64,000 nucleotides of DNA, from positions 1 to 64,000 of the forward strand of contig JAKSIB010000016.1 of assembly GCA_024399065.1 (NCBI GenBank). The letters are read 5' to 3'. Of this stretch, positions 1 to 12,104 are shown piece after piece; the stretch's first letter is position 1, and each line of letters starts with the position of its first letter. Source of the stretch: Fibrobacter sp. GTDB lineage: Bacteria; Fibrobacterota; Fibrobacteria; Fibrobacterales; Fibrobacteraceae. The notes beneath the pieces were generated by a model that was not told the origin of the DNA, did not search any database, and was given only the letters and a program-made list of their open reading frames with translations. The position numbers and the translations under genes are program-made.

Positions 1-505
1 CTGCGCGCAGTGCTGCGTAGATGTACTTGAATCCCTTGGATGCCATTTCTTCGAGGCGAGCCTGGGTCATGCTGGGTGCTGCCACCGGAATGTTTTCCAT
101 GCCGTACTTGGCGCAAGCAGCGGTGAGGCCTTCGTCGTTATCGAAGGGAAGGTCCGGAATAATGCAAGCGGAAACGCCTGCGTCCTTGCACATCTTCACG
201 AAGTTTTCGACGCCCGGAGTAAATGCCAAGCTACCATAAGTCATGATGTAAATGGGAGTATCCGGATGCATTTCGTGAATCTTCTTCACGATTTCAAGAC
301 CCTGCTTGGTGGAGTAGCCCTTTTCCAAAGCTACGGTAGAAGCGGTCTGAATGGCAGGACCGTCGGCGCTGGGGTCGCTAAAGGCCAACTGGATTTCCAG
401 GATGGATGCGCCGCCCTTTACGAGTGCGTCTGCGATGGCAATAGAAGTTTCACCGTCGGGGAAGCCGGCGATCAAATGAGACATGAGAGTGATAGGTGCG
501 TTCAT
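1..505 (-). CDS. trpA: Tryptophan synthase alpha chain, cut by window edge
   Basis: Cleaves indole-3-glycerol phosphate to indole and glyceraldehyde-3-phosphate and channels indole to TrpB. The first ~168 codons are present; the C-terminus lies beyond base 1. The active-site block is at residues 36-50 (LEIQLAFSDPSADGP): Glu37 and Asp48 align with catalytic E49 and D60 of E. coli TrpA, so the N-terminus is about 12 residues shorter than in E. coli. Two positions that are usually Gly and Pro in this block (LELGIPFSDP) are Gln and Ala. ATG at 505 has AGGA nine bases upstream. trpB lies just upstream, separated by a structured repeat, so the two are probably co-transcribed from the attenuated promoter near 2260. 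Confidence 0.95.
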   Translation of the reverse strand, partial: MNAPITLMSHLIAGFPDGETSIAIADALVKGGASILEIQLAFSDPSADGPAIQTASTVALEKGYSTKQGLEIVKKIHEMHPDTPIYIMTYGSLAFTPGVENFVKMCKDAGVSACIIPDLPFDNDEGLTAACAKYGMENIPVAAPSMTQARLEEMASKGFKYIYAALRA

Positions 506-530: not shown

Positions 531-660
531 AGACGAGAGACGAAAGACGAGAGACGAGAGATGTTAAATTTGCGCCTTTGGCGTTTTTTATGTAGCGGCT
601 ATGCCGCCATTATTTTCTTTCGTCTCTAGTCTGTAGGAGCGTAGCTCCGTTCTCTCGTCT
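531..660 (-). repeat. Structured intercistronic repeat, copy 1 (trpB-trpA gap)
   Basis: About 130 bp filling the trpB-trpA gap. Read with the genes, it begins TAGACGAGAGAACGG, has the palindrome GGAGCTACGCTCC, then GACTAGAGACGAAAGA, two short hairpins (GGCGGCATAGCCGC and CGCCAAAGGCG) and ends in four 7-bp units that are the reverse complement of AGACGAG/ACGAAAG. The outer AGACGAG units are inverted, so the whole element can fold into one long branched hairpin. A second copy with the same plan lies at 10315-10445 in the trpE-trpGD gap. Confidence 0.8.
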
Positions 661-663
661 AAG

Positions 664-1944
664 TTACTTGTTCATAATCTCTGCGTCGTGGATGTCTTCG
701 TTATTGTTCAGACGCTTCAGTTCTGCGGCCAGGAATTCCTTCCACTTTTCGGGGCGGAACACGGGACTGGTAATGAAGATGTCCTTGTCGCCGCGGCCAC
801 TCATGTTGATGATGATAGCCTTGTCCTTGGGGAATTCCTTGGCGATCTTTATGGCGGCGGCACCGGCGTGGGAACTTTCAAGAGCGAAGAGAATGCCTTC
901 GTTCTTGGCGAAGAAGTTTACGGCTTCCAAAGCTTCCTTGTCCAGGATGCTGGTGAATTCAACGCGGCCGGCTTCGCCCAGGGCTGCCAGCTGAGGGCCG
1001 ATACCCATATAGTCGAGACCTGCGGAAATGGAGCGTGTGGGCTGGGACTGACCATCGTCATCTACCAGGAACTTGCTCTTGTAACCTTGAACGATACCAA
1101 CCTTGGCAGCATTGCCCACCATGCGGGCTGCGTTTTCGCCAAGCTTCGGGCCTACGCCACCAGCTTCTGCACCGATGAGGCGAATCTTTTCATTTTCAAT
1201 AAACGGAGTGAACACGCCAATGGAGTTGGAACCGCCACCAACGCAAGCCACGATGGCTGCGATGTCCAGGTTGCGTTCTGCAGCCTGACGCTTCACTTCT
1301 TCACCGATGATGCTCTGGAAAGTACGGACGATATCGGGGAACGGTGCGGGACCGAGAGCGGAACCCAAAACGTAGTGGGTAGTAGCAAAGTTGGTTGCCC
1401 AGTCGCGCATGGCTTCGTTCACGGCATCCTTCAGAGTGCGGCTACCGCTGGTAACGGGCACCACCTTGGCACCGTAAAGTTCCATGGTGGCTACGTTTGG
1501 CTGTTGGCGACGAACGTCAACTTCGCCCATATAGACGATGCATTCCAGGCCCAGCTTTGCGCAAGCGGCTGCAGTGGCGAGACCGTGCTGACCTGCGCCA
1601 GTTTCTGCGATAATGCGGGTCTTGCCCATCTTCTTTGCCAAGAGGCACTGGCCGATGGCGTTGTTGATCTTGTGGGCGCCGGTGTTGGCGAGACCTTCCA
1701 GCTTGATGTAGATCTGAGCGCCGCCCAGGAGTTCTGTTGCGGTGGGGGCGTAGTACAGCGGAGTTTCGCGGCCAATGTAGTCGCGCTGGATGATACGCAG
1801 TTCTTCCAGGAATTCCGGGTCCTTGATGTACTTGTTGAAAGCTTCTTCAAGATCGTCCAAAGGACGGCGGATGATTTCGGCTACATACTTGCCGCCGAAC
1901 TCGTTGAAAAAGCCGTTATCTGATTCTACCAGAGATTTTGCCAT
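664..1944 (-). CDS. trpB: Tryptophan synthase beta chain
   Basis: PLP enzyme that condenses indole with serine to make tryptophan, in complex with TrpA. It has 426 residues, somewhat longer than E. coli TrpB (397), with extra residues at the C-terminus after the glycine-rich SGRGDKD. The PLP lysine is K92 in GAHKINNAIG, the catalytic Glu is E114 in AETGAGQHG, and the phosphate-binding loop is GGGSNSIG near 236-243. ATG at 1944 is preceded by three bases and a degenerate array of CCTG heptads rather than a Shine-Dalgarno sequence. A trp attenuator and promoter lie 130-330 bases upstream; trpA follows. Confidence 0.98.
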   Translation of the reverse strand: MAKSLVESDNGFFNEFGGKYVAEIIRRPLDDLEEAFNKYIKDPEFLEELRIIQRDYIGRETPLYYAPTATELLGGAQIYIKLEGLANTGAHKINNAIGQCLLAKKMGKTRIIAETGAGQHGLATAAACAKLGLECIVYMGEVDVRRQQPNVATMELYGAKVVPVTSGSRTLKDAVNEAMRDWATNFATTHYVLGSALGPAPFPDIVRTFQSIIGEEVKRQAAERNLDIAAIVACVGGGSNSIGVFTPFIENEKIRLIGAEAGGVGPKLGENAARMVGNAAKVGIVQGYKSKFLVDDDGQSQPTRSISAGLDYMGIGPQLAALGEAGRVEFTSILDKEALEAVNFFAKNEGILFALESSHAGAAAIKIAKEFPKDKAIIINMSGRGDKDIFITSPVFRPEKWKEFLAAELKRLNNNEDIHDAEIMNK

Positions 1945-2073: not shown

Positions 2074-2182
2074 CCTGGAGGATTCTAAATGTCTTTGGGG
2101 AAAAATAAAAGCCTCCAGGGAGTCTGGAAGCCTTTTGCCTTGATCAACTAAACTTGCAAAAACCAGACTCTATGTTAGAGTC
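2074..2182 (-). promoter_or_regulatory. trp attenuator (copy 1) upstream of trpB
   Basis: Four classic attenuator segments are visible on the minus strand. The 1:2 hairpin GACTCTA-ACA-TAGAGTC (2166-2182) overlaps the leader stop codon. Segment 2 contains GAGTCTGG, complementary to CCAGACTC in the 5' arm of the terminator, giving a 2:3 antiterminator. The 3:4 terminator is at 2101-2136. A fifth segment CCTCCAGG (2074-2081) is complementary to CCTGGAGG in the terminator 3' arm. Stalling at the Trp-Trp codons of the leader would free segment 2 and allow readthrough into trpB-trpA. Confidence 0.88.
2101..2136 (-). terminator. Attenuator terminator, copy 1
   Basis: Read leftwards: AAAAGGCTTCCAG, loop ACTCC, then CTGGAGGCTTTT, followed by ATTTTT. 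A 12-bp stem with G-U pairs and a U-rich tail; alternative to the antiterminator. Confidence 0.85.
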
Positions 2183-2234
2183 CGCGCCACCATCGGCCGT
2201 CAAAGTTTTCGCAAAGCACGTTAATCATCTTCAT
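2175..2234 (-). CDS. trpL: trp leader peptide, copy 1
   Basis: A 19-codon ORF, MKMINVLCENFDGRWWRGL, with two adjacent Trp codons four codons before the stop, exactly where a stalled ribosome would cover the 1:2 hairpin. It differs from the trpE-side copy by four bases and one residue (Glu9 for Lys9), so the reading frame is conserved. No Shine-Dalgarno sequence is visible and the predicted -10 box ends only 7 bases before the ATG, so translation may be leaderless. Confidence 0.85.
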   Translation of the reverse strand: MKMINVLCENFDGRWWRGL

Positions 2235-2241
2235 GTGCCAA

Positions 2242-2270
2242 AATTTATGAATATCCCTAAAAATTGGCAA
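2242..2270 (-). promoter_or_regulatory. Predicted sigma-70 promoter of trpL-trpB
   Basis: TTGCCA (-35), 17-base spacer, TAAATT (-10), read leftwards. The same boxes with the same spacing occur before the trpE leader, and the -10-to-ATG distance (7 bases) is identical. Confidence 0.6.
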
Positions 2271-2700: not shown

Positions 2701-3105
2701 TTATGTCCATAATGATGTAATAAACATTGGTGATGCATCATTACTTTTTACAAATCCACATTGCTCATAAAAATGTAATTCGTTATCATATGCAATAACT
2801 GCTACTCTCAGATAATCTTTATAATGTTCTTTCATCATAGCTACCAATGTTCTTCCTATCGTGTTTCCATGATATTGTGGATTTACTAACAAATAATGAA
2901 CATATGCATTCATAATTCCATCATCCATAGCACAAATCATTCCTACAAGTTTTTCCCCTTCCCATGCAGAATACACAGTCTGGAAATTTTTCATTGCTAC
3001 TACTAACTTATCTGGATAATGACCTGATGACCATTCAACAGAAAGAAATAAGTCCTTCAATTGTTCAGCTTCAAATTCGTGAATTTCTTTATATTCTATA
3101 CTCAT
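2701..3105 (-). CDS. GNAT-family N-acetyltransferase
   Basis: A 134-residue acetyl-CoA-dependent transferase of the GNAT fold; the substrate cannot be told. The acetyl-CoA-binding region is LLVNPQYHGNTIGRTLVAMM (residues ~72-91), a slightly divergent Q/RxxGxG/A motif, followed by a C-terminal NELHFYEQCGFV typical of the family. ATG at 3105 has AAGGGAA upstream. AT-rich codon use unlike the flanking trp genes suggests horizontal acquisition. It sits alone, between copies of a GGTTC/GAACC repeat, in the gap between trpCF and trpB. Confidence 0.85.
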   Translation of the reverse strand: MSIEYKEIHEFEAEQLKDLFLSVEWSSGHYPDKLVVAMKNFQTVYSAWEGEKLVGMICAMDDGIMNAYVHYLLVNPQYHGNTIGRTLVAMMKEHYKDYLRVAVIAYDNELHFYEQCGFVKSNDASPMFITSLWT

Positions 3106-3409: not shown

Positions 3410-5044
3410 TTACAAGCTATTGATTGCTGCAAACAGCTGCATCATCTTTTCTGTGTTCTTGACGCCGGGAGCATCTTCTACGCCGCTGGACACGTCCACA
3501 AGTTCGGGGGAGAACTTTGCGCAAATGTCGCCGATGTTCTCGGGAGTGATGCCGCCGGCGAGCCAGAAGGGTGTTTCGCCTGCTTTTTCGCGGAGCAGTT
3601 CTTCGGGAATACGTTTTCCGGATCCACCGGGGATGCCTTCTACCTTGGCGTCCAGAAGGACGCGGGGTTCACCGTGCTTGCGAATGGCGGCGAAGTTTTC
3701 GAAGTCTTCTGCGGAACCGATGCGAAGGGCGTTGTAGCAGGGGAGGGACGGAGACTGGGCGGCGCTTGCTACTTCTGCGGGAATTGCGTCAAATGCGGGT
3801 GCTGCAAATCCGTGGAACTGCACTGCGTCCAGAACGCCTTCGGCCGCAAGCTTAATGGCGGTCTTGCCTTCTTCTGTGGTGGTCTCGGTAATGACGCCAA
3901 CAAACAGGGGGCAAAGCTTACCTTCCGCTTCGTATTCGCTACGGAGCAGCTGGGTGAAGTCGCGGACGAACTTTTCGTTAGTCAGACGTTTTGTGTTGCT
4001 GAAAACGAAGCCCAGCATGTCGGCGCCCATTTCGGCGGCGGCAAAACCGTCTTCTTCGCGAGTGATGCCGCAAATCTTGACCATGGGAATCTTGTGTGCG
4101 GCGCGTTCTGCGTCGGCGCTTTCCATACTTGCGTCTGCCATAGCAGCGGCGTAGGCGGCGCGTTTGGCGTCACGGCGTTCTGCAAAGGTCTTCCAGAAGT
4201 CACCGCGGCGGTTATCTTCGGCGGTGCCAAATGCGGCAACTAGCTTTGCTGCTAGGGGCGGGTTCTTTGCCACGGCTTCGCCAACGAGAATTCCCTTGAA
4301 GCCCAGACTGCGGGCGAATGCGGCGTCGGCAGGAGTGTGTACTCCACTTTCAAAAACAGCCTTTGCCGGCAGCTTGTTGCGGATAGCTGCAGGAACCATG
4401 GGGTCGATGTGGAAGGTTGCCAGGTCGCGGGAATTTACGCCTGCAACGATGGTGCGTTCGGCACTTTTTGCTGCGTCGCCGGCAGCTTCCTTGTCCAACG
4501 TTTCCAAAACAAGATTCAGCTTTCTCAGATCATCCGGTTCACGGACTTCCACAAAAGCCTGCATCTCAAAACTCTGGGCGCGCTTGGCCATCTTGATCAG
4601 CTGTTCGTCATCCAGGATGCGGGCGATCAAAAGAACCGCGTCGGCACCGCAGCGGTAGGCGATGTCGATTTCGTCTTCGAACAGCAAGAAGTCCTTACGG
4701 AGCACGGCGCACTTCTTGGTGCCATCTCCATTATCCACGGCCTTGGCCACCGCAATCAGGTCTGCCAAAGTTCCCTTGAAGTAGTTGGTTTCTGTAAGCA
4801 CAGAAATTGCCTGTGCGCCGGCGGCGGCGTAAGTGCATGCCAAATCCGCAGGAACCAAGTCCGGGGCGATGTCCCCCTTGGAGGGCGAAGCTCGCTTGAC
4901 TTCGAGAATGGGACCCGGGCGGCCGAGAAATTCGCAACGGCCAACGGTACGCTTTTCGGGAATGTCAAAGCCAAAGGTGAGACCAAGGCGTTCAATGTCT
5001 GCACGTCTCTTGTCTACAATCTTCTTTAAAATATCTTCGCTCAT
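3410..5044 (-). CDS. trpCF: Bifunctional indole-3-glycerol-phosphate synthase / phosphoribosylanthranilate isomerase
   Basis: Two consecutive TIM barrels in 544 residues catalyse the isomerisation and ring closure that turn phosphoribosylanthranilate into indole-3-glycerol phosphate. IGPS spans ~1-275 with ILEVKRASPSKG (47-57), VLRKDFL (114-120), GVNSRDL and ESGVHTP. A charged, alanine-rich linker covers ~276-319. PRAI spans ~320-544 with KICGIT (catalytic Cys325), LDAVQFHG, VLLDAKVEG, GGSGK and LAGGITPEN. E. coli has the same IGPS-PRAI fusion. ATG at 5044 follows the longest heptad array in the window with no Shine-Dalgarno. No trp attenuator is seen upstream, unlike trpE and trpB. Confidence 0.97.
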   Translation of the reverse strand: MSEDILKKIVDKRRADIERLGLTFGFDIPEKRTVGRCEFLGRPGPILEVKRASPSKGDIAPDLVPADLACTYAAAGAQAISVLTETNYFKGTLADLIAVAKAVDNGDGTKKCAVLRKDFLLFEDEIDIAYRCGADAVLLIARILDDEQLIKMAKRAQSFEMQAFVEVREPDDLRKLNLVLETLDKEAAGDAAKSAERTIVAGVNSRDLATFHIDPMVPAAIRNKLPAKAVFESGVHTPADAAFARSLGFKGILVGEAVAKNPPLAAKLVAAFGTAEDNRRGDFWKTFAERRDAKRAAYAAAMADASMESADAERAAHKIPMVKICGITREEDGFAAAEMGADMLGFVFSNTKRLTNEKFVRDFTQLLRSEYEAEGKLCPLFVGVITETTTEEGKTAIKLAAEGVLDAVQFHGFAAPAFDAIPAEVASAAQSPSLPCYNALRIGSAEDFENFAAIRKHGEPRVLLDAKVEGIPGGSGKRIPEELLREKAGETPFWLAGGITPENIGDICAKFSPELVDVSSGVEDAPGVKNTEKMMQLFAAINSL

Positions 5045-5047
5045 TTA

Positions 5048-5124
5048 TAGGTTCCAGGTTCGAGGCACGAGGCGCGAGGTTCCAGGTTCGAGGCTCCAGG
5101 TACGAGGTTTGATGTTCGAGGCCC
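5048..5124 (-). repeat. NNNCCTS heptad array before trpCF start
   Basis: Eleven consecutive 7-bp units, read towards trpCF as GAACCTS, GTGCCTC, GCGCCTC, AAACCTC and variants; the CCT core is kept in all but one (GAACATC). The array ends exactly three bases (TAA) before ATG. Because 7 is not a multiple of 3, the array reads through all frames and is not coding. Confidence 0.85.
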
Positions 5125-5235: not shown

Positions 5236-5640
5236 GTGCAGATACAAAAGGACATAATCAAGTCTAAGTTGCAGGACTATTTTGCGCATCAGGATTCCAT
5301 TGATGCGGTAATCCTTTATGGCTCCTTTGCGAAAGGTAATTTCAACGAGTATAGCGATATTGACCTTGTGGTCCATTCAAAGGAAAGCCTGGATTTTGAT
5401 TCGCTTGCGACAATGCAGGTGGAATTGAGTCTTCTTTGCGGTCGAGAAATCGATATTTCGGATTTATCCAAGGCCGAGGGTGTATTTTTGCATCAGGTGA
5501 TGACCACCGGTGAACGTATCAAGTTTGACCATGCGGTATTCCACAAGTACCTTATGAAGGCCCTCTATTTTTACGAGGATTTTTTACCGATTATCCGTGC
5601 TTGCCGTGCAGAAAAAATAAAGAGGTTTGTTAATGGATAA
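5236..5640 (+). CDS. mntA: MntA-type antitoxin nucleotidyltransferase
   Basis: A minimal nucleotidyltransferase of 134 residues that neutralises the adjacent HEPN toxin; in characterised HepT-MntA pairs it AMPylates a toxin tyrosine. The signature GSFAKGNFNEYSDIDL (29-44) gives the GSx10DxD metal and nucleotide site with D41 and D43. The only suitable start is GTG at 5236; no strong ribosome site precedes it. The stop overlaps the toxin start by 8 bases (ATGGATAA), the usual coupling of this module. It is transcribed against the trp genes. Confidence 0.88.
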   Translation: MQIQKDIIKSKLQDYFAHQDSIDAVILYGSFAKGNFNEYSDIDLVVHSKESLDFDSLATMQVELSLLCGREIDISDLSKAEGVFLHQVMTTGERIKFDHAVFHKYLMKALYFYEDFLPIIRACRAEKIKRFVNG

Positions 5641-6037
5641 GGATGTACTTCAAGCGAAATTAGAAATGCTTATGCGTTGTGTTGAACGCATAAAGTCGCA
5701 AAATATCCAGACTTTGGAAGACCTTGAAAACAGTTTGGATAAACAAGATATTATCCTTTTGAATTTGCAAAGAGCCGTTCAGGTGTGCGTGGATATTGGT
5801 AATCACATTGTAGTTGATTACGGAGCATCGCCAGTTACCATGGCGGATACTTTCAAAATTTTATTTGAGAAAAATGTGATTTCAAAATCCAATGCAGATA
5901 ATTTAGCGAAGGCTGTTGGTTTTAGAAATATCGCAGTACATCAATACGAAGTTATTGACAACAAAATAATTTACTCCATTGTCAAGAATAACCTAAGCGA
6001 TTTTGTTGAATTTGCTGCGAGCATTGCCCGCTTGTAA
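5633..6037 (+). CDS. hepT: HepT-type HEPN ribonuclease toxin
   Basis: A 134-residue all-alpha HEPN (DUF86/HepT) protein, the RNase toxin of the HepT-MntA system. RNIAVHQY at 98-105 is the RX4HXY signature: R98 and H103 would be catalytic and Y105 the tyrosine modified by MntA. The start is placed at ATG 5633, with AGAGG seven bases upstream, not at the in-frame TTG at 5627. It overlaps the end of mntA. All key residues are present, so the toxin looks intact. Confidence 0.88.
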   Translation: MDKDVLQAKLEMLMRCVERIKSQNIQTLEDLENSLDKQDIILLNLQRAVQVCVDIGNHIVVDYGASPVTMADTFKILFEKNVISKSNADNLAKAVGFRNIAVHQYEVIDNKIIYSIVKNNLSDFVEFAASIARL

Positions 6038-6129: not shown

Positions 6130-7227
6130 ATGCGTAAAAAGATTTCACTGATGCTTCCGCTGCTTTGTGCACCACTGGCTTTTTGGGCCTGCGGTGACGG
6201 CGAATCCAGTTCCGGGGCTTCTGCAAATGGTTCCGTATCCGAGTCCGATTTGGTTGTTGCGACTTTCGATGATTTGCCTGTTTGCAGCGACAAGCGTGAG
6301 GGCGCTACCGCCTACGTGAAGGATGAAAAGACCGCCTACATCTGCGAAGACGGCAAATGGATTTCCGATGACGAAACGGACGGCGACGATTCCTCGTCGA
6401 GTGTCAAGCCGGGCAGTTCCTCCTCCTCTGTCAAGCCAGGCTCTTCCAGTAGCAAGAAGGACGACCCGATGTCCAGTAGCAGTATAGTTAGCTCTAGTAG
6501 CTCTGCTGTAAAAGTTGAATCGTCCAGTAGTAGTCGCGGTCTTTTTGATATGACGAAGGATGAATTCTTGAATCCGAAGGTTTCGTATGGCGAGATGACT
6601 GACACCCGCGACAATAAGACCTATAAGACCGTAAAGATCGATGATCAGGTATGGATGGCCGAGAACCTGAACTATGCCGATTCTACAAAAATGCCGAGCC
6701 TGAAGGGTAAGTCCTGGTGCTATGACAATAAGGCTGAAAACTGCGATGTAACCGGTCGCCTTTACATCTGGGCTGCAGCCATTGACTCAGTTGCCTTGGC
6801 AAACGATGCAGACAATCCTCAGATTTGCGGCTACGGCGTAGAATGTACGCTGCCGACAGTTGTTCAAGGCGTGTGCCCCGAAGGCTGGCACCTGCCGACA
6901 TACGAAGAATGGGAGACCTTGTTCACAGCGGTGGGTGGCTCTAGTAAGGCGGGTACGGCACTCAAGTCGCAGACCGGCTGGAAATCGCAGACGGGCGATG
7001 CTGCCGATAGGGATGCCTACGGCTTCTCCGCGCTCCCTGCAGGCTACAGACACTACCGTGACGGTTTCGGCAGAGCCGGCGACTACGCCTACTTCTGGTC
7101 TACTCGCGAGACCAATATCGGCGGCGCCTACTACATGGTTTTGTACTACGACTACGAGTATGCCGCCCTGAAAGGCACCTATAAGGACGACGGCTTCTCC
7201 GTTCGTTGTCTCCAAGACTCCAATTAA
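6130..7227 (+). CDS. FISUMP-domain surface lipoprotein
   Basis: A 365-residue exported lipoprotein. A signal peptide ends in a lipobox LAFWAC (Cys21). A small domain (~40-80) is followed by serine-rich linkers of SSSS/SVKPGSSSS type (~88-138), then a C-terminal domain (~150-365) of the Fibrobacter major-paralogue family (TIGR02145): DDQVWMAENLNY, CPEGWHLPTYEEW, FSALPAGYR, FWSTRE, FSVRCLQ. The fold resembles formylglycine-enzyme/C-type-lectin-like domains. Function is unknown; a surface or carbohydrate-related role is only inferred. TAGGAG precedes ATG. Its last codons and 3' flank are duplicated at 8563-8603. Confidence 0.9.
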   Translation: MRKKISLMLPLLCAPLAFWACGDGESSSGASANGSVSESDLVVATFDDLPVCSDKREGATAYVKDEKTAYICEDGKWISDDETDGDDSSSSVKPGSSSSSVKPGSSSSKKDDPMSSSSIVSSSSSAVKVESSSSSRGLFDMTKDEFLNPKVSYGEMTDTRDNKTYKTVKIDDQVWMAENLNYADSTKMPSLKGKSWCYDNKAENCDVTGRLYIWAAAIDSVALANDADNPQICGYGVECTLPTVVQGVCPEGWHLPTYEEWETLFTAVGGSSKAGTALKSQTGWKSQTGDAADRDAYGFSALPAGYRHYRDGFGRAGDYAYFWSTRETNIGGAYYMVLYYDYEYAALKGTYKDDGFSVRCLQDSN

Positions 7228-7348: not shown

Positions 7349-8551
7349 ATGAAAAGTGCCGTGCTCAATCAGCGAAAAGAACGGGACCGCCTTTTAGCGG
7401 AGCCTTACCTTACACGTCAAACGGTGTATGATTTTGAAGCCTTGCTCCAGAGCCCGAACATAAAGTTGTTAACGGGGCCTCGTCGCGTGGGAAAATCCAC
7501 CCAGGCTATTTTGATGCTGCGCGGGAAGAATTTTGCTTACCTGAATTTCGATGATAATGAATTGCTAAAAGGCTGGAACGAGGAACAGGCGGAAATGCTG
7601 CTGAACGAGGTGTACCCGAATTTTCAGTACCTTTTGCTTGACGAAGTCCAGAACGTAAGTGGCTGGGATGTTTTGGTCGGCAAGCTTTTTCGTCGTGGGT
7701 ACAACCTGGTTATAACAGGTAGTAACGCCAACATGCTTTCGGGAGAAATGGCAACCGTGCTTACGGGGCGATATCTTGAAATCAAGATGCTACCTTTTAG
7801 TTTGTTTGAAACATGCTCGTTTAATCGGGAATTGACCAAGGACGATTATCTTAAAAACGGGGGCTATCCGGAAACGGTGTCGCAACGGGCCATAACGCAA
7901 ACATACCTGCAGACACTGTTCGATTCCATTGTGTACAAGGATGTGGTTCGCAGGCACAAGATCCGAAATGTTACGGACCTGAATAATGTGGCTACATTCC
8001 TTCTTGCAAATTTTACGGGAACATTTAGCTACAACGATGTGGCGGATGACCTTGGCCTTTCCAGCGTTGCCACGACAAAAAAGTTCATGGACTATTTGCA
8101 TGAGCCATTCCTGTTCTATTATCTGGATAGATACAACAACAAATTGAAACTAATGAAAAAGGCTCCGCGCAAGGTCTATGTGGTTGACAATGGCTTTGTT
8201 TCGTCGAGGGCGTTTAGCCTTAGCGAAAATCTGGGAAAACTTCTGGAAAATCAAGTCTTTATTGAATTGCTTCGCCGTGGGTACGATACCGAAAAATCCT
8301 TGTTCTACTACCATTCTCGCAATGACAAGGAAACGGATTTTGTAGTTCGTGAAGGTAACAAGGTAAAGCAGCTAATTCAAGTTTGTTACGAGATGTCGAA
8401 CGAAAAAACAGAAAAGCGAGAGGTGGGTAGCCTTGTGGAATGCGCCGGCGAACTGAAGTGCGATAACCTTACCATTGTAACATGGAATGATGAACGGCTC
8501 ATTGAAAAGAACGGGTATGTTATTAAGGTCGTGCCCGTGGAAAAATTTTGA
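7349..8551 (+). CDS. AAA_14/DUF4143 ATPase
   Basis: A 400-residue predicted ATPase. The N-terminal AAA domain has Walker A GPRRVGKST (43-51), Walker B YLLLDEVQ (94-101) and a sensor-like ITGSNANML. A winged-helix/DUF4143 part follows (GGYPETV, DVVRRHKIRN, then the nuclease-like ETDFVVREG near 330). Proteins of this type are common in gut bacteria, often near mobile or stress loci; their role is not established. ATG at 7349 lacks a good ribosome site. The gene lies wholly between the two copies of a 41-bp direct repeat. Confidence 0.88.
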   Translation: MKSAVLNQRKERDRLLAEPYLTRQTVYDFEALLQSPNIKLLTGPRRVGKSTQAILMLRGKNFAYLNFDDNELLKGWNEEQAEMLLNEVYPNFQYLLLDEVQNVSGWDVLVGKLFRRGYNLVITGSNANMLSGEMATVLTGRYLEIKMLPFSLFETCSFNRELTKDDYLKNGGYPETVSQRAITQTYLQTLFDSIVYKDVVRRHKIRNVTDLNNVATFLLANFTGTFSYNDVADDLGLSSVATTKKFMDYLHEPFLFYYLDRYNNKLKLMKKAPRKVYVVDNGFVSSRAFSLSENLGKLLENQVFIELLRRGYDTEKSLFYYHSRNDKETDFVVREGNKVKQLIQVCYEMSNEKTEKREVGSLVECAGELKCDNLTIVTWNDERLIEKNGYVIKVVPVEKF

Positions 8552-8692: not shown

Positions 8693-10288
8693 CTAGCTAT
8701 TACTTGCAACCTTGACTTCTTCGATCTTCTTCAGCACGGAGCCGTCTTCGATTGCCTTCATGGCCATGTCGTAGCCTTCCTTGATGGTGGCGGCCTTCTT
8801 GCTGATGTAGAGGGCGGCACCAGCGTTCAGGGCGCAAGCGTACTTGATGCCCGGACGGCCCTTGCCGTTCAACATGTCCAGACCCAGCTTGAAGTTTTCT
8901 TCGCCGGTGCCACCTGCCAGATCGTCTTCGTCCACAGCGGGAACGCCGAAGTCCTTGGGGTCGATACGGTAGGTCTTGTAAACGCCGTCTTCCAGGATTT
9001 CTGCAATGGTGGTGGGAACGCAGGGAGAAATTTCATCGTAGCCGTCGTCGCTCAAGGCAACCATGACGCGCTTTGCACCCAGGGCATGTGCTGCCTTGGT
9101 GAAGGGTTCCAGCACAGCTTCGCTGTAAACGCCCAGGCAAAGGTACTTGGCTTCTGCAGGGTTGGTGAGAGGTCCGATGAGGTTCATGATGGTCTTGATG
9201 CCAAGGCACTGGCGGACAGGACCTGCGAAACGCATGGCGCTGTGATAGACGGGAGCCATAAGGAATACAAAGCCAGTCTTTTCCAGAACTTCGGCTGCCT
9301 TTTCCGGAGTCATGTCCAGCTTGAAGCCTGCGGCGGTGTAGAAGTTTGCTGCACCGGACTTGCTGGAAACGGCGCGGTTGCCGTGCTTTGCAATCTTACA
9401 ACCGCAGGTAGCTGCGATAAGGCCAGACATGGAACTCACATTGAAGCTGCCCTTGCCGTCGCCACCGGTACCCACGATGTCGGTGAGCTCGTCGCCAGCA
9501 ATGGGGAACTTGCGCTTCTTGCGGCTGAGTACTGCGGCGCAGCCTGCGATTTCATCGGCCACGGGGCCCTTGCAGGAAAGACCTGTAAGAATGGCGGCCA
9601 TCTGGCGTTCGTCCATGATGCCGTCGGTCAGGTCGTCCATGAAACGTTCTGCTGTCTCGCGGGAAAGATCCTTGCCAACCATGAGGGTGTTCAGGATGCC
9701 GCGAACGTCCAGAGGATCGCGACGGTAGTTGAGGAATGCCTTGAAGAATTCGGCTTCCTTGCCGCTGGCGATTGATTCCGGGTGGAACTGGACGCCTTCG
9801 ATGTCCATGGTCTTGTGACGGATGCCCATGATGTCGCCGTCGTCGGCGCGGGCGGTCACTTCGAATTCCGGCGGGAGGGTGGATTCGTCGATAACCAGGC
9901 TGTGGTAGCGGGTGAAGGGGTTCTTCTTGCCGATGGTGCGGAAGAGGCCGCGGCCGTCGGTGTTGATGTCTTCCACGATGCCATGCTTGATGAACTTTGC
10001 ACCCACGATCTTTGCACCGAAAGCGTAGCCAATAGCCTGGTGACCAAGGCAGATGCCAAGAATGGGGAGCTTGCCTGCGAAGTGCCTGATGGCTTCAACA
10101 GAGATGCCTGCATCTTCAGGGCGACCCGGGCCCGGGCTCACAATGAGGCGGCTTGGGTTCAGAGCTTCGATGTCGGCGATGGTGCATTCCTTGCTGCGGA
10201 GCACGCGGATTTCTTCGTTAGTGATCTTGGCCAAAGCCTGATACACGTTGTAAGTGAAAGAGTCGTAGTTGTCAATTAAAACGATCAT
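8693..10288 (-). CDS. trpGD: Anthranilate synthase glutaminase / anthranilate phosphoribosyltransferase fusion
   Basis: A 531-residue fusion. The N-terminal glutamine amidotransferase (1-~190) supplies ammonia to TrpE: NYDSFTYN, GPGRP, nucleophile Cys80 in GICLGHQ, and VQFHPES with H169 and E171. The C-terminal part (~196-531) transfers phosphoribose from PRPP to anthranilate: GTGGDGKGSFNVS (273-285), KHGNRAVSSKSG. The same fusion exists in E. coli. ATG at 10288 has GAGG about nine bases upstream. trpE lies upstream, separated by the structured repeat at 10315-10445. A REP-like palindrome and a terminator follow. Confidence 0.97.
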   Translation of the reverse strand: MIVLIDNYDSFTYNVYQALAKITNEEIRVLRSKECTIADIEALNPSRLIVSPGPGRPEDAGISVEAIRHFAGKLPILGICLGHQAIGYAFGAKIVGAKFIKHGIVEDINTDGRGLFRTIGKKNPFTRYHSLVIDESTLPPEFEVTARADDGDIMGIRHKTMDIEGVQFHPESIASGKEAEFFKAFLNYRRDPLDVRGILNTLMVGKDLSRETAERFMDDLTDGIMDERQMAAILTGLSCKGPVADEIAGCAAVLSRKKRKFPIAGDELTDIVGTGGDGKGSFNVSSMSGLIAATCGCKIAKHGNRAVSSKSGAANFYTAAGFKLDMTPEKAAEVLEKTGFVFLMAPVYHSAMRFAGPVRQCLGIKTIMNLIGPLTNPAEAKYLCLGVYSEAVLEPFTKAAHALGAKRVMVALSDDGYDEISPCVPTTIAEILEDGVYKTYRIDPKDFGVPAVDEDDLAGGTGEENFKLGLDMLNGKGRPGIKYACALNAGAALYISKKAATIKEGYDMAMKAIEDGSVLKKIEEVKVASNS

Positions 10289-10314: not shown

Positions 10315-10445
10315 AGACGAAAGACGAGAGGCGAGAGACGAGAGAGTTTAATATCGTGCCTTCGGCACCCATGATATGGCAGCTTTGCTGCCTAATTTTA
10401 TCTTTCGTCTTTAGTCTGTAGGCGCGTAGCGCCGTTCTCTCGTCT
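10315..10445 (-). repeat. Structured intercistronic repeat, copy 2 (trpE-trpGD gap)
   Basis: Same plan as 531-660. Read with the genes: TAGACGAGAGAACGG, palindrome GGCGCTACGCGCC, GACTAAAGACGAAAGA, hairpins GGCAGCAAAGCTGCC and GTGCCGAAGGCAC, then four heptads that are the reverse complement of AGACGAG/AGGCGAG/AGACGAA. The arms of each hairpin differ from copy 1 but stay complementary, so RNA structure rather than sequence is kept. The trpE stop codon TAG is the first triplet of the element. Confidence 0.82.
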
Positions 10446-11856
10446 ATTTCACTCCTTCCAGGACGGCACGAACGGCACCGAGCTTTTCGTTAGTTTCTTC
10501 AAATTCGCGTTCTGCGTTGGAGGCAGCCACAATGCCACCGCCAGCTTGCAGGCTGATCTTCTTGCCCTGCTTCAGGCAGCAACGGATAGAAATACAGAAG
10601 TCCAGGTCACCATCGGATTCGATGTAGCCCACAGCGCCTGCATAGAAGCGACGCTTGACTTTTTCCAAACCAGAAAGAATTTCGATGGCGCTGATCTTGG
10701 GAGCGCCGCTGACGGTACCTGCGGGGAAGCTGGAACGAAGTACTTCGATGGACTTCTTACCAACGCTTACCTTACCCTGAACGTCAGAAACCAGGTGGAT
10801 CACATGACTGTACTTTTCGCATTCCATGTACTTCACGGTATCCACGGTGCCGGCGGTGCAGACGCGGCCAAGGTCGTTGCGGGCCAGGTCCACAAGCATC
10901 AGGTGTTCTGCCTTCTCCTTGGGGTCGGCCTTCAGTTCCTTCATCAATTCTTCGTCTTCCAGGTCGTTCTTGCCACGGCGGCGAGTACCTGCGATGGGAT
11001 GGATGGTGGCAATGCCATCACGGACGCGGACCAGGCTTTCCGGGGATGCGCCGATGAACTGGTGAGTACCGTAGTCCAGGTAGAACATGTACGGAGACGG
11101 GTTCACGGAACGGAGGCGGCGGTAGATGTCCAATGCCTCGATGTCGCTTTCGAACTGGATGCGGCGAGAGGGCACGGCCTGGACGATGTCGCCGGCCACG
11201 ATGTGCTTCTGAAGTTCCACCACCTTGGCGGAGTATTCTTCCTTGGACTTGGAAAGATCGGTAACAGTAACGCCCTTGGCCACTTCCTGTTCCGGAGCCA
11301 GGTAGCTGAAGTCCATGTCGGCCAGACGCTTCTTCACGTTGTTGATGGCGGCCGGCAGGTCGATCTGGTGTTCTTCGTAGTTCAGGGCGAACAGGTGAAG
11401 CTTTTCGGTGTAGTGGTCGAACACGATGTAGATGTGGCCCACCATGAATTCAGCTTCGGGAATGTTCAGTTCATCCACCTGGGGTGCCAGGTGAATGGTA
11501 TCGCAGCGTGCGCAGAATTCGTACCCCAGGTAGCCCACGCCAGAGGAGGGAATAGGAATCTGGTTAGGGGGCACGGTGTTTTCTGCGGAAATCTTCAGCA
11601 AGGCGTCCAGGATGTCGCCTTCGCCTTCCTTCAGGAAAACGCTTTCCTTGCCATCGACGACGATGGACACGTCCTTTTCGTTTTGACGGAGACGGAAGCC
11701 TTCGTCCACCATCAAAGTGGAGTAGCGGCTCTTGCCGTGTGCGAAAGATGCGGATTCAAAGATTGCCTTTGCTCCCAGCTTCTTGCCCAGGGAGAAAGGG
11801 GTATAGCGTTCGCCAGGAAGGGCGACGTAGATGCTATCGGTGCGAGGTTCTGTCAT
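10444..11856 (-). CDS. trpE: Anthranilate synthase component I
   Basis: Converts chorismate and ammonia to anthranilate, the first step of the branch, with TrpG. In 470 residues the N-terminal regulatory domain carries FESASFAHGKSRYS (34-47), the region corresponding to the LLES Trp-feedback motif. The chorismate-binding domain (~215-465) has QAVPSRR, HPIAGTRRRG, MLVDLARNDLGRV, SGAPKISAIEIL and YAGAVGY. ATG at 11856 follows AGAGGA. A trp attenuator with a Trp-Trp leader peptide lies directly upstream; trpGD follows after the repeat that includes this gene's stop codon. Confidence 0.98.
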   Translation of the reverse strand: MTEPRTDSIYVALPGERYTPFSLGKKLGAKAIFESASFAHGKSRYSTLMVDEGFRLRQNEKDVSIVVDGKESVFLKEGEGDILDALLKISAENTVPPNQIPIPSSGVGYLGYEFCARCDTIHLAPQVDELNIPEAEFMVGHIYIVFDHYTEKLHLFALNYEEHQIDLPAAINNVKKRLADMDFSYLAPEQEVAKGVTVTDLSKSKEEYSAKVVELQKHIVAGDIVQAVPSRRIQFESDIEALDIYRRLRSVNPSPYMFYLDYGTHQFIGASPESLVRVRDGIATIHPIAGTRRRGKNDLEDEELMKELKADPKEKAEHLMLVDLARNDLGRVCTAGTVDTVKYMECEKYSHVIHLVSDVQGKVSVGKKSIEVLRSSFPAGTVSGAPKISAIEILSGLEKVKRRFYAGAVGYIESDGDLDFCISIRCCLKQGKKISLQAGGGIVAASNAEREFEETNEKLGAVRAVLEGVK

Positions 11857-11907
11857 TTTTCAATCCTCTGTTTTTAACGGACCAAATTTAGCTTTTTAGG
11901 CTTTCGT

Positions 11908-12016
11908 CCTGGAGGATTTCAAATGTAAAGGGAAAAAATAAAAGCCTCCAGGGAGTCTGGAAGCCTTTGCCTTGATTAAATAGTACGTGCAAAAAACCAG
12001 ACTCTATGTTAGAGTC
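11908..12016 (-). promoter_or_regulatory. trp attenuator (copy 2) upstream of trpE
   Basis: Minus-strand architecture identical to 2074-2182. 1:2 hairpin GACTCTA-ACA-TAGAGTC at 12000-12016; antiterminator segment GAGTCTGG (11997-12004) pairing with CCAGACTC (11953-11960); 3:4 terminator at 11933-11968; and the extra downstream CCTCCAGG (11908-11915) complementary to CCTGGAGG in the terminator (11945-11952). The pairing segments match copy 1 while the linkers differ, which supports function. Confidence 0.9.
11933..11968 (-). terminator. Attenuator terminator, copy 2
   Basis: AAAGGCTTCCAG, loop ACTCC, CTGGAGGCTTTT, then ATTTTTT on the minus strand. Confidence 0.87.
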
Positions 12017-12068
12017 CGCGCCACCATCGGCCGTCAAAGTTCTTGCAGAGTACGTTAATCATCTTCAT
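12009..12068 (-). CDS. trpL: trp leader peptide, copy 2
   Basis: MKMINVLCKNFDGRWWRGL, 19 codons, with Trp15-Trp16. It resembles E. coli TrpL (tandem Trp near the C-terminus) in design. Four base differences from copy 1, two of them silent. As in copy 1 there is no visible ribosome-binding site and the ATG is 7 bases after the -10 box. Confidence 0.88.
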   Translation of the reverse strand: MKMINVLCKNFDGRWWRGL

Positions 12069-12075
12069 GTTCAAT

Positions 12076-12104
12076 AATTTATGAATATCCCTACATGTTG
12101 GCAA
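12076..12104 (-). promoter_or_regulatory. Predicted sigma-70 promoter of trpL-trpE
   Basis: TTGCCA, 17 bases, TAAATT on the minus strand; conserved in sequence and spacing with the copy at 2242-2270. Confidence 0.6.

Follow-up and report, generated by a model that had tools for sequence, protein, structure and literature searches.

Probable tryptophan leader-peptide attenuators in Fibrobacter: a regulatory cassette probably copied between trp transcription units, with a possible translational layer at trpE

The closest described counterparts of the system reported here are the trp attenuators of enteric bacteria (E. coli trpL; Rfam RF00513), which share with it tandem Trp codons just 5′ of the leader stop, the logic of segments 1–4 and the position before trpE. 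In other bacteria, trp genes are controlled by TRAP, TrpR or T-boxes. In Bacillus subtilis, the TRAP system acts at two levels: it attenuates transcription and, in the read-through mRNA, a hairpin masks the trpE Shine-Dalgarno.

A survey published in 2010 (Naville and Gautheret 2010, PMC2965389) recorded leader-peptide systems as known only in Proteobacteria and Actinobacteria, to which it added its own finding in Firmicutes. The His leaders that it described in bacilli are a precedent both for leader-peptide attenuation in an unexpected phylum and for attenuators that move between genes, but they concern another amino acid and another phylum, and Fibrobacter is not mentioned there. Leaderless trpL transcripts, starting at the ATG of a Trp leader before trpE, have been reported in Sinorhizobium meliloti (PMC7298713) and Streptomyces lividans (PMC8079986: MFAHSTRNWWWTAHPAAH); Streptomyces also has a second Trp leader, before trpS (PMC8079986). 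The literature that we searched yielded nothing on trp regulation in Fibrobacter. The principle described below is textbook attenuation and as such already known. As far as we searched, what is new is the phylum, the serial copying of a cassette, which has reached as many as three trp units and a TrpB2 gene, the combination of this copying with a probable leaderless start, and an additional pairing element, segment 5. Classical trp attenuation thereby very probably extends to Fibrobacterota, to a rumen and gut bacterium far from E. coli.

The window, that is, the whole 64-kb stretch of Fibrobacter DNA that was analysed, carries the following trp genes:

2–505, minus strand: trpA (TIGR00262, over the NCBIfam cut-off), running past the window edge
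664–1944, minus strand: trpB (TIGR00263, over the NCBIfam cut-off)
3410–5044, minus strand: trpCF fusion (best match NF006945, TrpC/TrpF, below the cut-off)
8693–10288, minus strand: trpGD fusion (NF011201, over the cut-off)
10444–11856, minus strand: trpE (best match TIGR00564 with 478 bits, below the cut-off of 517.7)

The identity of trpE is also indicated by its place 5′ of trpGD and by homologues, 62–99% identical, that stand before trpGD in relatives. Within the window, the trp genes retain the order and orientation E-GD-(inserted genes)-CF-(GNAT)-[leader]-B-A. On the opposite strand, the stretch that separates trpGD from trpCF contains an inserted MntA/HepT type VII toxin-antitoxin pair (5236–6037), which adjoins a Fib_succ_major protein (6130–7227) and an AAA_14/DUF4143 ATPase (7349–8551).

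A preliminary description of this DNA had placed a leader module before trpB and another before trpE. Reading of the sequence confirmed both, at 2074–2270 and 11908–12104 on the minus strand, with the following parts:

2265–2270, minus strand: -35 element TTGCCA of the trpB leader (CCCTTGCCA), whose position 5′ of the leader ATG is kept in nearly all of 71 loci
2242–2247, minus strand: -10 element TAAATT of the trpB leader, in an FCB-like TAnnTTTG context, with a 17-nt spacer
2175–2234, minus strand: leader ORF of the trpB copy (MKMINVLCENFDGRWWRGL, then stop), Trp codons at 2192–2187
2177–2183, minus strand: segment 1 (GGACTCT) of the trpB copy, from sequence and fold, overlapping the last leader codons and the stop
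2163–2171, minus strand: segment 2 (AGAGTCTGG) of the trpB copy, from sequence and folding, partner of segment 1 (pause hairpin) or 3 (antiterminator)
2120–2127, minus strand: segment 3 core (CCAGACTC) of the trpB copy, pairing with segment 2
2107–2135, minus strand: terminator hairpin 3:4 (AAAGGCTTCCAG / CTGGAGGCTTTT) of the trpB copy, U-tract at 2110–2101
2074–2083, minus strand: segment 5 (ATCCTCCAGG) of the trpB copy, complementary to segment 4
12099–12104, minus strand: -35 element TTGCCA of the trpE leader, from sequence
12076–12081, minus strand: -10 element TAAATT of the trpE leader, from sequence
12009–12068, minus strand: leader ORF of the trpE copy (MKMINVLCKNFDGRWWRGL, then stop), Trp codons at 12026–12021
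12011–12017, minus strand: segment 1 of the trpE copy, from sequence and fold
11997–12005, minus strand: segment 2 of the trpE copy, from sequence and folding
11953–11960, minus strand: segment 3 core of the trpE copy, from sequence and folding
11940–11968, minus strand: terminator hairpin 3:4 of the trpE copy, U-tract to 11933
11908–11917, minus strand: segment 5 (ATCCTCCAGG) of the trpE copy, pairing with segment 4 (CCTGGAGG, 11952–11945) or the trpE Shine-Dalgarno
11862–11869, minus strand: trpE Shine-Dalgarno AGAGGATT, with GAGGATT complementary to AATCCTC of segment 5

Each module consists, in this order, of a promoter (CCTTGCCA, a 17-nt spacer and TAAATT in both copies), a 19-codon ORF ending in ..DGRWWRGL and a stop, the stretch GACTCTAACATAGAGTCTGG, which comprises segments 1 and 2 and spans the leader stop codon, a linker, AAAGGCTTCCAGACTCCCTGGAGGCTTTTATTTTT and then AATCCTCCAGG. 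Aligned across 197 nt, the two copies are 88% identical. The letters are the same in both over the Trp codons with segments 1 and 2 (GCCGATGGTGGCGCGGACTCTAACATAGAGTCTGG) and over segments 3 and 4 including the U-tract (AAAGGCTTCCAGACTCCCTGGAGGCTTTTATTTTT), and the differences are confined to the linkers and the upstream sequence. DNA comparison with the module revealed no further copies elsewhere in the genome, and no leader peptide was found in the 600 nt upstream of ilvB of the same genome.

This anatomy, together with what relatives conserve, makes it very likely that both modules are ribosome-mediated (leader-peptide) transcription attenuators sensing charged tRNA-Trp, a reading that we hold with high confidence because relatives keep the leader frame, the Trp codons and the stop, while the pairing segments co-vary. 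RNA polymerase would start at or beside the leader ATG. With ample Trp-tRNA, the ribosome would pass Trp15-Trp16, reach the stop and mask segment 2, which leaves segments 3 and 4 to fold into the terminator, and RNA polymerase would stop short of trpB or trpE. With scarce Trp-tRNA, it would stall at the Trp codons and mask segment 1, allowing segments 2 and 3 to pair and transcription to go on. An untranslated leader would fold into 1:2 and 3:4, and transcription would stop. Since both modules would receive the same Trp-tRNA signal, both trp units would respond together. Anatomy, conservation, covariation and the phylogeny of the copies are properties of the sequences themselves; ribosome stalling and termination we infer.

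Folding agrees with this scheme. The terminator of the trpB copy has −16.8 kcal/mol (z −4.7) and that of the trpE copy −16.6 kcal/mol (z −3.8), values equalled by no shuffle. Segment 1 begins 3 nt past the last Trp codon and thus lies under a ribosome stalled on the Trp codons. Folding and a simulation of ribosome positions indicate that the antiterminator and the U-tailed terminator are mutually exclusive. When the simulated ribosome is parked on the Trp codons, upstream sequence captures half or more of the terminator 5′ arm in 90 of 96 modules before segment 4 has been transcribed; the terminator forms in 76/96 modules with the ribosome at the stop codon and in 84/96 without translation, several of the failures being terminators overlooked by the script.

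Could the hairpins simply be terminators of upstream genes, with the Trp-rich ORFs an accident? Some species do have decayed relatives of the trpB module (L228, L225) that are at most upstream-gene terminators. However, modules in different genera invariably precede trp genes, and they retain the promoter, the Trp codons, the reading frame and stop of the leader and the alternative 2:3 pairing; accident is also a poor explanation of the window itself. It contains six short ORFs with Trp-Trp near the stop, but a terminator at least as stable as −12 kcal/mol lies within 130 nt for the two leaders only; 60 dinucleotide shuffles of the window gave two such cases in total, a chance expectation of 0.03 per window. 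We therefore regard plain terminators as highly improbable.

A different Trp sensor acting on the terminator, be it TRAP, TrpR, a T-box or a Trp-binding riboswitch, has in its favour that such control of trp genes is known in other bacteria. Against it, the genome has no gene for TRAP (PF02081; the B. subtilis control was positive) or TrpR (TIGR01321; control likewise positive), no T-box or other Rfam family was detected at gathering score, and no bacterial riboswitch or T-box appeared even among weak matches with E up to 10. Moreover, the positions of the Trp codons and the stop are conserved relative to segment 1. We consider another sensor very unlikely.

The Fibrobacter leader peptide resembles E. 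coli TrpL (MK..., ...WWR..). Unlike the enteric trpL, the Fibrobacter leaders have no match to Rfam RF00513 (Trp_leader), either at gathering score or among matches to E 10, are probably leaderless without a Shine-Dalgarno, occur in several copies per genome and possess segment 5, and the window genome has no TrpR gene.

The preliminary description had proposed ribosome-stalling attenuation of two separate trp transcription units in Fibrobacterota, with conservation of the leader peptide and pairing in related genomes as its check. The relatives support the proposal on both counts. A module match was found in 53 of 61 genomes of the genus Fibrobacter, including all 29 of good quality, and the suggested covariance-model search returned matches in 81 of 111 family genomes, usually exactly 5′ of trpE and trpB. 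The model was made from one module type only, because the first MAFFT alignments put the terminators of the two types out of register. Trp codons and stop are kept without exception, while other codons vary, often synonymously, and the stop switches between TAA and TGA. Among relatives, leaders stand before trpE, trpB, trpCF and trpB2. In Fibrobacter, trpE leaders end in ..NRRWWRGL or ..DGRWWRGL and, in most species, trpB leaders end in ..NRWWWGS... The ..NRRWWRGL leaders have one constant A-C mismatch in pairings 1:2 and 2:3.

Beyond Fibrobacter, trp genes are preceded by Trp leaders in several further genera of its family and in a second family of the same order. Before trpE, the leaders of other genera end in ..NNNAWWWQTQ (L151), ..NNWWWRTSKSEYAC (L128), ..NNTWWWQVP, ..FGWWWMTP or ..RFWWWQAL, and that of the second family in ..RFWWRWNSK (L149); a leader of a further genus ends in ..NNNRWWRRT (L196). 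Each ending stands directly before the stop. Stem sequences differ from genus to genus, yet the alternative pairing is present in each. WWW leaders with terminators were also seen in two genera whose TrpE is distant (about 36–41% identity; L165, L166). When a named genome collection was searched with a DNA pattern covering the Trp codons and segments 1–2, 47 stretches matched, all from Fibrobacter or Fibrobacterales MAGs and many from rumen or horse faeces. The leader is not phylum-wide: a simple test detected none before trpE in genus g7 of the family or in the other classes sampled. The weak covariance hits L235–L238 were rejected; they are without a Trp leader and look like chance terminators. 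In many other Fibrobacter, the U-tract of the trpE terminator is interrupted (TTTCTCTTTT), and termination there may be weak.

Two observations concern the trp genes of these relatives. The Fibrobacter genome G107 (99% complete) has no trpE, no trpCF and no leader match, and is probably a tryptophan auxotroph. TrpE identity to that of the window is 94% in G142 (genus g3) and 84–86% in G126/G123 (family f2), compared with 36–39% in genus g7 of the window's own family; the trp genes may have been transferred horizontally, or G142 may be contaminated.

The promoter geometry suggests where the leader transcript starts. The -10 element ends 7 nt 5′ of the leader ATG; in all 71 loci, mostly from different species, the base at -1 to the ATG is C or T and +1 is A. 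We predict a transcript start at, or 1–2 nt before, the A of the ATG. The leader transcript is probably leaderless, because the -10 element ends so close, a pyrimidine stands at -1 and the stretch 5′ of the ATG is too short for a Shine-Dalgarno. The start is thus placed from promoter position, whereas those of the Sinorhizobium and Streptomyces trpL come from mapped transcripts; these leaders stand before trpE and, unlike the Fibrobacter ones, are not repeated over trp units.

How the Fibrobacter leaders came to be repeated can be followed in the relatives. In genera g2, g5 and g6, trpE-GD-CF-B form a contiguous operon that is preceded by one leader and followed by trpA (L151–L153, L155, L201–L203, L205), and an intact trpEGDCFBA operon with a single leader is found in the outgroup (L152, L153, L155). 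In genus g4, trpE and trpB are apart and have a leader each. Most Fibrobacter species have two leaders, although G033 and G046 have a single one in the arrangement trpCF-[leader]-B-A-E-GD (L169, L170). The older state would then be one leader before an intact trpEGDCFBA operon, with a second leader arising later before trpB. It had been suggested that the module was copied when the operon was broken. G026 does not support this: in addition to its leader before trpE (L053), it has a second one (L231) that stands between trpCF and trpB although the cluster, trpE-GD-CF-[leader]-B-A, is contiguous, and the origin of the trpB leader therefore need not coincide with a break. The window, too, retains this order and orientation, apart from the inserted genes. 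The TrpB tree leaves the position of G026 without resolution.

The near identity of the window copies has a more recent history. In the module tree, the trpB leaders of the window clade fall within the trpE type; they group (98/97) with those that precede trpE in the window genome and G054, and this group is set apart from the trpE leaders of sister genomes. Forcing the window-clade trpB leaders to group with other trpB leaders was rejected (AU p=0.007; the tested group was partly picked after the sequences were seen). G036, the nearest relative in TrpB, retains a WWW-type trpB leader. The tree and G036 together imply that the whole cassette was copied at least twice in the window clade. As judged from these sequences, the window-clade trpB leader is a trpE-type replacement of the original, and the trpE leader of the window genome (and of G054) was then overwritten by the trpB version. 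It is quite likely, more generally, that the cassette, from promoter to segment 5, has been recurrently copied between trp units.

Alternatively, selection since an old duplication might have kept the pairing segments alike, as the restriction of differences to linkers and upstream sequence would suggest. This is improbable, given that trpE and trpB leaders differ strongly in most species, that the window-clade trpB leaders form one clade with the trpE leader of the window genome (98/97), apart from the trpE leaders of sister genomes, that grouping them with other trpB leaders is rejected (p 0.007), and that the WWW type survives in G036. The preliminary observation of identical pairing segments is accordingly correct for the window copies but does not hold as an echo of an old duplication, trpE and trpB types being different in most species. 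Repeated copying of the cassette offers a worked example of separated operon pieces that stay co-regulated by copying a complete regulatory cassette; different stages of this process survive among living relatives.

The copying extends to further genes. Initially trpCF was described as having no leader. The upstream sequence bears this out in the window, but three relatives (G048, G130, G052) have a leader there and hence all three trp units covered. These trpCF leaders (L225 2225–2296, L226 6212–6283, L227 719–790) end in ..ANRWWWGS(L/I/V)(G/K) and a stop, and their terminator stem is altered yet pairing (GGCATTCGG/CCGGATGCC). In genus g3, G080 and G155 have neither trpE nor trpCF, and the leader stands before a stand-alone TrpB2 (TIGR01415), which suggests Trp-controlled indole salvage or another TrpB2 role. 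The TrpB2-gene leaders of this sister genus lie at about 2896–2943, minus strand (L213 and L214), and are accompanied by a terminator. Decayed copies of the trpB module without Trp codons lie ~190 nt 5′ of the trpB leader in L228, L229, L230, L225 and L226; these hits were rejected as tandem attenuators, since they have no Trp leader and are terminators at most.

Segment 5 is present 3′ of the U-tract in 56 of 57 distinct Fibrobacter trpE leaders, as ATCCTCC(A/G) or GTCCTCCA, and in none of 26 WWW-type trpB leaders. The stretches from the U-tract to segment 5 and from segment 5 to trpE vary in length and letters. Segment 5 is complementary to both segment 4 and the trpE Shine-Dalgarno; with the latter it can form 6 to 9 Watson-Crick pairs in all 56 leaders, compared with 4 or 5 pairs in non-cognate combinations. 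In two genomes an A-U pair has changed to G-C by compensation, GTCCT facing GGACT instead of GGATT. In modelling, pairing of segment 5 with the Shine-Dalgarno is near 1 with the terminator in place, and segment 4 competes for segment 5 once segments 2 and 3 are taken. The switch is complete in the window trpE leader and partial in many others, and the computed shift in Shine-Dalgarno accessibility is modest on average (0.24 against 0.17). Two genomes (L057, L058) have the same trpE Shine-Dalgarno though no segment 5 precedes it; because it is unchanged there, the trpE Shine-Dalgarno has not been shaped by segment 5. Before trpB, segment 5 has no Shine-Dalgarno partner and is decaying in several genomes; it is probably a remnant that came with the copied trpE module.

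Modelling and complementarity tentatively suggest that segment 5 gives trpE leaders a translational layer. In RNA that leaks past a formed terminator hairpin, segment 5 would hide the trpE Shine-Dalgarno; when 2:3 forms, segment 4 would be freed to pair with segment 5, exposing it. In the trpE leader, a single stalled ribosome may then operate a two-tier switch, within a cassette repeatedly copied between trp units, though we lean slightly against this. The states of the switch, if so, might be 5:4 with the Shine-Dalgarno free under Trp starvation and, when Trp is replete, 5:Shine-Dalgarno with the read-through mRNA silenced; this assignment is no firmer. On an equally plausible reading, segment 5 stabilises the read-through mRNA or is a processing site, with no control of trpE translation. 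That reading would account for the fact that, in most trpE leaders, segment 5 is complementary to segment 4 of the terminator, and for a AAGCCTTTGC-like motif, complementary to the terminator 5′ arm, after segment 5 in 49 of 52 leaders of the main clade; it sits less well with the 6–9 Watson-Crick pairs to the trpE Shine-Dalgarno, the compensatory change in two genomes and the absence or decay of segment 5 before trpB. Should the two-tier switch be true, it would be a ribosome-sensed counterpart of TRAP in Bacillus: in B. subtilis the sensor is a protein, whereas in Fibrobacter, which has no TRAP gene, the stalled ribosome would set both layers. The segment 5 pairing, if real, would link a transcription and a translation decision driven by one ribosome.

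Finally, seven-base tandem repeats lie just 5′ of the starts of trpA, trpCF and trpGD (window 531–561, 5049–5121 and 10315–10345), and a similar element is common to the trpB-trpA and trpE-trpGD gaps (AGACGAGAGA.. and ..TCTCTCGTCT). A change in the copy number of the seven-base repeats could affect translation.
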